A DNA stretch of 23,226 bases from a virus. The stretch is from IMG/VR virus record IMGVR_UViG_3300017598_000146, positions 1 to 23,226 of that record. One strand, written 5' to 3'. Position 1 is the first letter of the stretch, and each line of letters opens with the position of its first letter. Shown in pieces: positions 6,101 through 18,575 of this stretch. Below the pieces are notes generated by a model. That model was not told where the DNA came from. It saw only the letters and a program-made list of their open reading frames with translations, and did no database searches. Made by a program: the position numbers and the translations under genes.

Positions 6101-7243
6101 TTATCCTCCGTACATTATAAAAGCCAGACAGTAATATGCGGGCCACCATGAAACAGAAGTGTCTATCTGAGTATGTGCTGTCATAGCTACATTTTCAGCG
6201 TGGTATGAATTATTATTGTTACCACCACCTGATTCATTATTACCATCCTCATGTGTATGATTAGCATGTGTCAACGTACCTGCCGTTTCATAGTATGCTT
6301 TACCGTCACCCTGATTTGAACCAGCACTTGCTTGTGCCACTGGTATAATCATCCTGTCTAATAAATTAGGAGTACCGTTGTTACCATCACATAGATACCA
6401 CCCAGAAGGAGGTGTTGTATTCTCGTACATTGCTATGATATTTGATCCGTAGTCTTCAAGAGATACTGCACCAACTGCGTCACTCCATGCTGCCATAAGT
6501 CTTGCCCACCACATGTTAGACATAGTAAATGTTTCTGTATGTGTGTGTGCACCCCTTACACGAGATGTAGTAAGACCACTACTATTACCACAATCAAGTA
6601 TACCATGAGCGTGACCACCTGCTGAATCTGATACTTGATCTGTCAATGTATTAGATCCACCCGTTCCGACACTGTTGTTGGCTTTAAACATATAGCCGTC
6701 TGTCCATACATTAGTAGCAACACCAGACTTGTCTTCACTATCTGTAAATAGAACAGAACCAGCAGGAAACTCTGTCTCGTTGCCAGAAGTAGTTCTAATA
6801 AGATAACATTCCTGATAAGGAGGATCATACGCAAGTGTGAAATCATGTGTATGATCTCCAGTAGAACTTGAGTTACGATACTTACCACCACTATTATTCA
6901 AGTTAGTTTCCATTGGGGTCACACCAGTATGTGCTCCAGTTGTGTTTGTAGAAGCAGTTATATTTCCTGCACTAGCACCACTAGCATCAACTGCCCATGT
7001 GTTACCAGCACCAAATATAGTGTTACCATCTGCTGCAGCATACAGTTCCCAACCAGCAGGAGCACCACCTGCTCCAGCGGTATAAGGTATAATCAAATTA
7101 TCTGGTATCGGCGGTGTATAAGAAGTTACAGAGTTCATCTTTTTAATTTCACCAGCAGCAGCAGCGTCATCAGCGTCTATAACAATGCCGTTGATCTTTG
7201 CTATGTTAGCTCCCGGTACTTGATTTAATTTACTCCATGTCAT
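6101..7243 (-). CDS. tail-collar-type fibre/receptor-tip protein with three collar-like modules (380 aa)
   Basis: Probable host-contact protein at the virion tip. I see three successive modules. Residues 48-151 hold APAGWELY, GNTIFGAG and HTHDF, ending in CYLIR. Residues 158-255 hold DGYMFKA, HAHG and AHTHTETF, ending in WWARLMAAWS. Residues 268-379 hold PPSGWYLCDGNNGTPNLLDR and ANHTHED, ending in WWPAYYCLAFIMYGG. The PSGW..CDG...TPNL.DR pattern is typical of the phage tail collar domain (Pfam PF07484), and HxH motifs bind metal in T4 gp12 and gp37 tips (family knowledge). The start ATG overlaps the previous stop (TAATG), tying it to the fibre upstream. Confidence in the collar identity is high for the third module and moderate for the first two. 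Confidence 0.85.
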   Translation of the reverse strand: MTWSKLNQVPGANIAKINGIVIDADDAAAAGEIKKMNSVTSYTPPIPDNLIIPYTAGAGGAPAGWELYAAADGNTIFGAGNTWAVDASGASAGNITASTNTTGAHTGVTPMETNLNNSGGKYRNSSSTGDHTHDFTLAYDPPYQECYLIRTTSGNETEFPAGSVLFTDSEDKSGVATNVWTDGYMFKANNSVGTGGSNTLTDQVSDSAGGHAHGILDCGNSSGLTTSRVRGAHTHTETFTMSNMWWARLMAAWSDAVGAVSLEDYGSNIIAMYENTTPPSGWYLCDGNNGTPNLLDRMIIPVAQASAGSNQGDGKAYYETAGTLTHANHTHEDGNNESGGGNNNNSYHAENVAMTAHTQIDTSVSWWPAYYCLAFIMYGG

Positions 7244-16354: not shown

Positions 16355-16675
16355 TTATAGTTTGTATTTTTCTTCCATCACTTTACATTTTGCTTCCATC
16401 CACTTGTTCCACCCATGAGGAAACCTCTTACATATCGTAGGACGAGTCTCGTAGATTGTACAAGCAAACCCTTCTTCATTCATTTTATAGTGAGGACAAG
16501 GTTGACTCAGATAGAACACATACTCATCATCTGTTTCAATCTCTTCCTTACTTCTGGCTCTATAAAACTCTGCTGATTGTTTTATCCAGTTTGCCCCACG
16601 TGAATCATTCTTTGATATTTGGTGAATGTTCATAATACAACACCATCCGCAATCCTTACAATCAGGAAAGCTCAT
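16355..16675 (-). CDS. YkgJ-family CxxCxxCC cysteine-cluster protein (106 aa)
   Basis: The N-terminus reads CKDCGWCC at residues 6-13. After a helical stretch come PCPHYKMNEEGFACTIYETR and PTICKRFPHGW. The CxxCGxCC plus PCPH...C.IYE.RP..C..FP arrangement is the signature of the YkgJ/UPF0153 putative zinc- or iron-chelating family (PF03692), whose biochemical role is not established. I choose ATG at 16675, preceded by GGTGA; GTG and TTG codons nine and twelve bases further upstream are possible. The gene overlaps the end of the 330-residue Cys-rich gene by 14 bases, suggesting coupling. Such proteins are common in bacteria but unexpected inside a virion structural operon. Confidence 0.85.
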   Translation of the reverse strand: MSFPDCKDCGWCCIMNIHQISKNDSRGANWIKQSAEFYRARSKEEIETDDEYVFYLSQPCPHYKMNEEGFACTIYETRPTICKRFPHGWNKWMEAKCKVMEEKYKL

Positions 16676-17654
16676 CTTGATCACCAATCACATGCGGTTC
16701 AAGTTGCAGCGGATTTCGCCAGTTGTGTCCCATATCCAAGATAGCATTTGGATTAACCTGATACTTCTCAGCAGCCTTGTAAATAGCCCCAAGCATCTGC
16801 GTACCCTGTTCGCCTGTAATACCATCAAGTATATTAGCTTTAGCTAACGCCATCTCTTCTTTTAATGTAGCTCTGTCTTTATTATCATAGCGCACGTAAT
16901 CTGGAAACAAGGACTCTCCACCATTATAAGGCTTATAAGACATGTCTCCGTTAGCATGTGCCCACAGAAACCACTTTGACAGTACATGATGTTTTGCTTC
17001 TTTACTCTGCTCAACATTGGTAGACTCATAGTCTATATAATGTTCTATCAAAGAAAGTACTTTCTCTTCTCTTCTATTCATGTGCCAACTAGGAGACGGG
17101 CCTTTAACAAACTCGTACTCTGTACATCCACGTTTCAAAAGAACATTGTCAGCTACTTCGTCGCCAAGTTCTCCCCTGACCGCTTCACGCACTACTTCGC
17201 ACATTTCTAATCCTTCATCCAAACTATCCGCATAATGATACCCACCGTAGAACTTAGGTGTGTAATCTCGAACTTCAATACCACACTTGCACGGAAAATT
17301 AAAACCCTTTTGGATCTCTCTCAACTGCATCAGTTGATCAAAACTGGTTGGAGTTACCACTGTTTTCCAGCACTCCAGACATTTAGGTGGAATGATTCTA
17401 AACTGGTTAAAACAAATCTGATGATCCATCCCACACCGTTTTGATTGTCCTTGGTTTGTGTGTATCCACGGAGTATCAGTAGCCATTGCGGTTACACCAC
17501 CACGAATCAACTTACATTTATCTGCAGACCAGTGGAACCCAGCAGCCTGTATTGGTTTTAATGTTTGAACAACGTCAGTTTCTATTAACTCTTTTGCGTA
17601 TCCACTCCACGTCATCGTGTTGTAGATCATATCTGGTGATTGTAAAAATCCCAT
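16662..17654 (-). CDS. Cys-rich protein of unknown function (330 aa)
   Basis: Unrecognised. Residues 74-124 are rich in potential metal ligands: C74, H78, C81, a C92-x2-C95 knuckle (PPKCLECWK) and C122-x-C124 (FPCKCGIE). C152 and C177 (KRGCTEYEF) follow. The C-terminal third is helical and charged (ATLKEEMALAKANILD, AIYKAAEKYQVNPNAILD). There is no signal peptide or membrane helix. It has a very strong site, AAGGGGG, six bases before ATG, and lies after an intergenic pseudoknot. It ends inside the YkgJ-type gene, so the two Cys-rich proteins are probably made together. A metal-binding, possibly cytosolic accessory role is inferred; a structural role cannot be excluded. Confidence 0.82.
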   Translation of the reverse strand: MGFLQSPDMIYNTMTWSGYAKELIETDVVQTLKPIQAAGFHWSADKCKLIRGGVTAMATDTPWIHTNQGQSKRCGMDHQICFNQFRIIPPKCLECWKTVVTPTSFDQLMQLREIQKGFNFPCKCGIEVRDYTPKFYGGYHYADSLDEGLEMCEVVREAVRGELGDEVADNVLLKRGCTEYEFVKGPSPSWHMNRREEKVLSLIEHYIDYESTNVEQSKEAKHHVLSKWFLWAHANGDMSYKPYNGGESLFPDYVRYDNKDRATLKEEMALAKANILDGITGEQGTQMLGAIYKAAEKYQVNPNAILDMGHNWRNPLQLEPHVIGDQDELS

Positions 17655-17688
17655 ATGTTCCCCCTTTTACTTTAAATTTAAGTAACGT

Positions 17689-17726
17689 GGACTTGTTTGG
17701 ATATAGGTACAAGTCCCTAAACCTAT
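17689..17726 (-). promoter_or_regulatory. H-type RNA pseudoknot in the intergenic region
   Basis: In transcript order the elements are ATAGGT, TTAG, GGACTTGT, ACCTAT, ATCCAA, ACAAGTCC. The first and fourth elements are perfect complements (stem 1, 6 bp) and the third and sixth are perfect complements (stem 2, 8 bp). Loops are 4, 0 and 6 bases, the classic H-type geometry with coaxial stems. It begins seven bases after the TAA of the 251-residue gene and ends about 25 bases before the AAGGGGG site of the 330-residue gene. No U-run follows, so it is not a standard terminator. mRNA-end protection, processing or translational control are possible roles. Confidence 0.6.
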
Positions 17727-17733
17727 TTTTAAT

Positions 17734-18489
17734 TTATTCAGGTACGTATTCACAATTAGCTTTCATTTCCCATACACCAGAATTGGTGACGGTCAATGCA
17801 TTAACTTCAGCATCTACATCAGCAACAGTCCCACCCAGTTGACAAAGTACACGTCCACCGTGAGGAAAGTATCGCGGAATAAAATACGAACCAGCATCAA
17901 CTGCGTTACTGGCACTAGGGTCAATAACAAGTGGCAACACACCAAGATACGGAGTGGTGGCACTAGATGCGACAGCAGGAATAGCAATTGGGGCAGTACC
18001 GAGGATAGAGTTTTTGATCAAACTACCAGAGGATAACGCCTTAGCCAAATTGATTGTTCCCATTGTAGCGGTTGCAGAAGAAGCAGAATTGTAAGTAGCG
18101 GTTGTAACACCACTAGCCACAGTTTTCTTCATAATATTCTGAGCATAAAAAGTAACTGTAAATACATAGTCACTGTCAGACAGAGAGCAAGATCCGGGTG
18201 CCAATGTAGCATTGACATCAGGTGCATCTTCTCCCGGTACAGAGAACAGAGACAGTCCAGTTACCATTGTTCTGTCAGGTACATCTAAGACTGCAACAGG
18301 TGCGTCAGCAATAGCACTGGAAGCTCCGGTTACTGCAGAAGCAGCCAACCAGTCAGCAAGTCCAGCACCAAACCGATTCCGCAACGTAAATCCACCCTGT
18401 CGTGGGGTAGACATTGGAGCAGCATCAGGATTAGTTGCAACACTTGTTAAGTCTATTAATGAACCCGTGTGTTTAAAAGCAATAGCCAT
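17734..18489 (-). CDS. virion-type protein encoded after the capsid gene (251 aa)
   Basis: Unrecognised. It is rich in Ala, Ser, Thr and Val with a beta pattern. Conspicuous segments are GGFTLRNRFGAGLADWLAASA (in pieces, residues 32-52), YVFTVTFYAQN (near 107-117) and a C-terminal YFIPRYFPHGGRVLCQLG region. The position just behind the major capsid gene, with its own strong AAGGAG nine bases before ATG and structured flanking intergenic regions, suggests a high-copy virion protein. Capsid decoration or a head-stabilising protein is the favoured inference. No signal peptide or membrane segment is seen. Confidence 0.8.
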   Translation of the reverse strand: MAIAFKHTGSLIDLTSVATNPDAAPMSTPRQGGFTLRNRFGAGLADWLAASAVTGASSAIADAPVAVLDVPDRTMVTGLSLFSVPGEDAPDVNATLAPGSCSLSDSDYVFTVTFYAQNIMKKTVASGVTTATYNSASSATATMGTINLAKALSSGSLIKNSILGTAPIAIPAVASSATTPYLGVLPLVIDPSASNAVDAGSYFIPRYFPHGGRVLCQLGGTVADVDAEVNALTVTNSGVWEMKANCEYVPE

Positions 18490-18533
18490 TTTAAAATTCT
18501 CCTTGAGGTTACGATCCTCTAGTTAGATTTGGT

Positions 18534-18575
18534 GGGGGTCTCTGGAGAGATACGTCAACTCCGTCACAGACCCCC
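18534..18575 (-). promoter_or_regulatory. stem-loop between capsid gene and following gene
   Basis: An 8-bp perfect stem (GGGGGTCT with AGACCCCC), with an inner 4-bp stem (GGAG with CTCC at 18544-18547 and 18559-18562), lies about 30 bases after the capsid gene stop. No U-tract follows, so I read it as an mRNA 3'-end stabiliser, processing site or partial, factor-assisted terminator rather than a canonical intrinsic terminator. Confidence 0.55.

Follow-up and report, generated by a model that had tools for sequence, protein, structure and literature searches.

The closest described systems are (i) bacterial operons in which stem-loops in 3′ untranslated regions set stability and stoichiometry (PMC8219983, PMC4423207), together with 3′ structures that withstand 3′ exonucleases (PMC3997798); (ii) phage T4 gene 32, in which UUAA(A) repeats that cover the ribosome-binding site come after a pseudoknot ∼67 nt upstream, and whose product, gp32, is a zinc protein (PMC3014915); and (iii) the int-alpA RNA (Rfam RF02996). 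For the leader of a neighbouring gene, a parallel is the operator of Escherichia coli thrS, which contains two hairpins that mimic the anticodon arm of tRNA-Thr(CGU) (PMC11088916). Here we compare these systems with a structured intergenic gap and its surroundings in a phage virion operon.

The window, i.e. the whole 23,226-nt stretch that was analysed, is a 23-kb IMG/VR phage record with a P22-like portal, a PF13252-family capsid and an SU10-type adaptor, and all genes considered lie on its minus strand. The gene of a 251-aa protein (17734–18489, minus strand; stop codon at 17736–17734) lies directly 3′ of the major capsid gene. Searches of Pfam and PHROG give no match for this protein, and its predicted structure is too poor for use (mean pLDDT 50). 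The next gene (16662–17654, minus strand; start codon at 17654) encodes a 330-aa protein without a family match in domain and family searches and, with a predicted structure at pLDDT 78, without a fold match. An alignment of the 330-aa family reveals four invariant residues, C74, H78, C92 and C95 (C-x3-H-x13-C-x2-C). The adjoining gene (16355–16687, minus strand) encodes a 110-aa CxxCxxCC putative metal-binding protein (PF03692).

The gap between the 251-aa and 330-aa genes spans 79 nt (17655–17733). Apart from this gap and the 115-nt gap between the capsid and 251-aa genes, no intergenic gap of the window is longer than 30 nt; these two are both structured. Towards its 3′ end, the 79-nt gap contains an A+U-rich tract, ACUUAAAUUUAAAGU (17669–17683, minus strand), between the pseudoknot described below and the ribosome-binding site, and the Shine–Dalgarno (SD) sequence AGGGGGA of the 330-aa gene (17659–17665, minus strand), which has an equivalent of the same type in relatives L002, L009, L012, L043 and L046.

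The pseudoknot occupies 17726–17689 on the minus strand, with coordinates re-derived by script. Read 5′ to 3′, it consists of the 5′ strand of stem 1, AUAGGU (17726–17721), which is a perfect complement of 17703–17708; loop 1, UUAG (17720–17717); the 5′ strand of stem 2, GGACUUGU (17716–17709); the 3′ strand of stem 1, ACCUAU (17708–17703), which directly abuts stem 2 so that loop 2 has zero length; loop 3, AUCCAA (17702–17697); and the 3′ strand of stem 2, ACAAGUCC (17696–17689). All 14 pairs are Watson–Crick (6 bp in stem 1 and 8 bp in stem 2), and the loops measure 4, 0 and 6 nt. The initial annotation, which had proposed interleaved perfect stems of these lengths with these loops, is therefore exact in this respect; it was also right to place the element 7 bases after the 251-aa stop codon and over half of the gap (38/79 nt). 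Judged on sequence, the interleaved stems and sterically possible loops are those of an H-type pseudoknot. Pairing potential and position are plain features of this locus; from them we infer that the RNA of 17726–17689 may fold as a pseudoknot.

First-order Markov simulations give an expectation of 0.05 perfect 6 + 8 bp pseudoknots per window strand and place one in 0.1% of composition-matched 79-mers. The arrangement occurs once on the minus strand of the window, and the plus-strand match is the reverse complement of the same element. Summed nearest-neighbour stacking energies are −10.0 kcal/mol in stem 1 and −15.2 kcal/mol in stem 2, so that, by these sums alone, the pseudoknot fold is energetically plausible. 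In nested folding the region does not stand out (z −1.15 over a 101-nt stretch, −1.6 over the gap), and stem 2 is ∼88% formed in the nested ensemble. Once the stem 2 hairpin is given, 4.6% of flank shuffles yield an equally stable helix between its loop and upstream bases. Stem 2 is a clear hairpin and stem 1, taken alone, is modestly significant.

We then compared the homologous gaps of related phages. A capsid search returned 44 viral loci, and aligning the 251-aa protein and the 330-aa protein brought in more. After removal of duplicates, 23 distinct gaps lie 3′ of a 251-aa homologue, or 24 with the window. As a set, these 24 gaps show more folding than shuffled sequence, with a mean z of −1.92 and a combined z of −9.4 (the latter is indicative since some phages in the set are related), and the gaps of L002, L012 and L066 are, like that of the window, unexceptional in this comparison. 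A stem-loop recurs in this slot, but arms and loops are unrelated in sequence between phages: L009 has a GAAA-loop hairpin, L026 a UUCG-loop hairpin, and L020, L061, L062 and L067 have long hairpins. In L037, the SD sequence of the 330-aa gene lies inside a hairpin (GTACCTGCGGGAGGTAC, 7199–7239) in place of a separate stem-loop. In L002, L009, L026, L043 and L046, the hairpin precedes a small open reading frame, which is missing in the window, where the 330-aa gene comes directly. Group I introns (RF00028) lie within the capsid region or close to it in L009 (3690–3936), L012 (4716–4969) and L026 (5198–5451), the last of which splits the capsid match.

Stem 1 is distributed far more narrowly than the hairpin. 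It is absent in L009, L026, L012, L020, L043, L046 and others, although the hairpin is kept. Only L002–L004, which share one sequence, could form a comparable but shorter knot, in which stem 1 (AAGGU/ACCUU) has 5 bp and adjoins the hairpin stem without a linker, and loop 3, at 2 nt, is tight. Searches of the viral collection found no close relatives of the window's gap, and the exact pseudoknot sequence has no other copy in IMG/VR; a looser pattern retrieves two contigs in coding-like sequence without a match to the window's proteins. Since the other relatives lack stem 1, this stem is restricted to one or two lineages, and it is stem 2 that belongs to the conserved slot. The initial annotation had named homologous gaps without compensatory substitutions that lose either stem as evidence against its proposal; this is largely what we see, in that the hairpin persists and stem 1 is mostly lost. 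Such a pattern, together with the 4.6% of flank shuffles, is consistent with stem 2 being a real stem-loop and stem 1 a chance complement, in which case no functional pseudoknot would exist. This reading is well worth weighing, but we regard it as unlikely: stem 1 is perfect over 6 bp, has a zero linker and leaves sterically sensible loops, L002–L004 could form a comparable knot, and 3 of the 24 gaps (window counted), against 0.18 expected, contain a perfect knot whose two stems have no fewer than 5 and 6 bp, albeit one of the two outside the window, in L062, is A+U-rich and may be due to chance.

The reading that we favour, with a probability of roughly 45%, is that the pseudoknot may be a variant of the stem-loop slot found in nearly all relatives and would most likely act as an intercistronic mRNA barrier. 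Stem 2 would be the stem-loop of the slot and stem 1 a lineage-specific addition that would let the loop of stem 2 pair with bases just upstream. The structure would shield the capsid/251-aa segment of the mRNA on its 3′ side and set this segment apart from the next gene; we infer every functional step of this model. As in operons regulated by selective processing and stabilization, a cistron that lies inside an operon and is strongly needed has a stem-loop directly 3′ of its stop codon. The locus differs from those operons in that it belongs to a phage virion operon, has a pseudoknot in place of a plain hairpin and is known from its sequence alone. Exonuclease protection fits this anatomy best among the three functions that had been offered for the element, while the downstream gene could also be under its control and nothing supports a ligand-binding RNA. 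Three observations sit uneasily with the barrier: (i) the nested fold of the window's gap barely beats its shuffles (z −1.2 to −1.6); (ii) the model gives no reason for the added stem 1 in this phage; and (iii) it does not explain the three-way-junction RNA that occupies the same slot in other relatives.

The position 3′ of the most expressed block would also suit weak attenuation or termination of transcription between the head block and the genes that follow it. Short T runs indeed follow the hairpin in some relatives (TTTTAAT in L002, CTTTTC in L026, and also in L012 and L055), so some of their hairpins may be terminators. Most gap elements, including that of the window, are without a U-tract and are therefore not ordinary terminators. 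At the pseudoknot, the G+C-rich stem followed by a U-tract that marks an intrinsic terminator is absent, the bases 3′ of the stem being ACGUUACUU, and no terminator-like match falls at the site on the coding strand. We consider an attenuator or terminator here improbable. The 79-nt gap likewise gives no promoter match, and a promoter in it was rejected.

Pseudoknots that direct stop-codon readthrough or frameshifting typically follow a 7-nt spacer. These functions were rejected by inspection: the C-terminus of the 251-aa protein (YVPE or similar, then the stop) is conserved, the spacing of the hairpin differs from one relative to another, and a slippery site 5′ of the stop was not seen. At the DNA level, the stem 2 arms form an 8-bp inverted repeat, GGACTTGT-N12-ACAAGTCC, with half-sites 20 bp apart, i.e. 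two helical turns, as a dimeric regulator might bind. Nevertheless, allowing three mismatches reveals no second copy of the full motif in the window, the half-site occurs at chance frequency and the arm sequences of homologous hairpins are unrelated. A DNA operator is thus very improbable, and we rejected it for want of a repeated motif in the window.

The layout of the gap (pseudoknot, UUAAA-type tract, SD sequence and start codon) recalls that of gene 32 of phages T4, T2 and RB69, where an H-type knot likewise lies 5′ of an A+U-rich tract and the ribosome-binding site (PMC3014915). The knot of the window starts 72 nt 5′ of the start codon, compared with ∼67 nt in T4; ACUUAAAUUUAAAGU (17683–17669) is an A+U-rich tract of the UUAA(A) type near the ribosome-binding site; and the invariant C-H-C-C pattern raises the possibility that the downstream protein binds zinc, as gp32 does (PMC3014915). 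A protein, possibly the 330-aa product, could thus bind the knot, spread over the A+U-rich tract and block the ribosome-binding site. However, the knot of the window differs from gene 32 in belonging to a virion operon, in its loops of 4, 0 and 6 nt and in its loss from most relatives. The 330-aa protein, encoded in that operon, matches neither a single-strand-binding protein nor any family or fold, RNA binding by it is purely hypothetical, and in several relatives (L002, L009, L026 and L046) the hairpin and the 330-aa gene have a small gene between them. We give an operator of the gene 32 type a slim chance, and a marginally slimmer one to the specific proposal that the 330-aa or another late protein would bind the knot and shut off 330-aa translation via the UUAAA tract. 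Were the knot an operator bound by a protein, it would add to the rare examples, among viruses, of translational control through a pseudoknot.

Some relatives carry a different RNA in the same slot. The int-alpA RNA (Rfam RF02996) scores above the gathering threshold in L069 and L072, its core is recognized by pattern in L019, L058, L061, L062, L064 and L074, and by eye in L063, L075, L092 and L147. In location, the RF02996 matches of L069 and L072 and the shared core of L058, L063, L064, L074, L147 and L019 occupy the gap, and the elements of L058, L063, L064, L069, L072, L074, L147 and L092 lie 5′ of the 330-aa gene or its neighbour. Unlike the knot of the window, int-alpA forms a three-way junction, and the complement of its loop lies in downstream bases. 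The window does not reach the covariance-model gathering threshold of 35.8 bits for RF02996 and has no match even at E up to 5. In L061 (5465–5545) and L062 (5473), a further int-alpA-like core lies ∼2 kb downstream of the start of the 330-aa gene; the element therefore also occurs outside the slot.

Sites complementary to the apical loop were listed by script and are raw counts without a shuffle background. Of the 10 elements, 8 (all except L075 and L019) have a loop that is complementary to the SD sequence of the next gene over 5–8 bp, as one would partly expect from its likeness to an anti-SD sequence. A further site just 3′ of the element is Watson–Crick complementary to the loop in 7/8 cases, L063 needing a G–U pair, and in L064 the same ACCGAGG is also present at the SD sequence of the gene for the 330-aa protein and in the leader of the 251-aa gene. 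This complementarity suggests that the int-alpA-type RNAs may act in translational control.

Sharing a slot with int-alpA-type RNAs is what speaks for the pseudoknot of the window being a degenerate int-alpA RNA or a riboswitch-like ligand-binding pseudoknot. Yet the window's gap has no credible Rfam match up to E 5, no three-way junction and no conserved loop residues, and its loop pairs upstream rather than downstream, which leaves this reading scarcely credible. The small pseudoknot riboswitches of Rfam (preQ1, SAM-II and others) give no family-model match to the gap either, which bears out the initial impression that the element resembles none of them. At present the locus adds a further structured gap among phage head genes, and its main use is to show a slot that is conserved while its contents are exchanged, i.e. 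a plain hairpin, a pseudoknot or an int-alpA-type junction.

The int-alpA-type RNAs and a set of hairpins in the leader of the 251-aa gene are better supported than the pseudoknot and look more interesting. A leader scan places the latter at 18505–18519 and 18534–18575 (minus strand) in the window, and leader hairpins also occur in L002, L009, L012, L019, L020, L026, L037, L043, L046 and others. A hairpin with an AUCGUAA loop and the core GAUCGUAAC is found in 24 distinct 251-aa-gene leaders, just 5′ of the SD sequence in nearly all of them; these leaders were gathered by that loop, so its invariance partly reflects selection. A stricter script did not place this hairpin in L055 and found none in L066, and Rfam gives no match to it. 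Its stem covaries, with 13 double-sided cells (0/500 shuffles). Most leaders contain a second hairpin further upstream, with an AUCGUA, AACGUAA or similar loop. The AUCGUAA loop is one base off UUCGUAA, the anticodon loop of E. coli tRNA-Thr(CGU), and the leader anatomy, with two anticodon-loop-like hairpins, is like that of the E. coli thrS operator, as a matter of resemblance only (PMC11088916). A phage protein would be an equally good candidate ligand of these hairpins.
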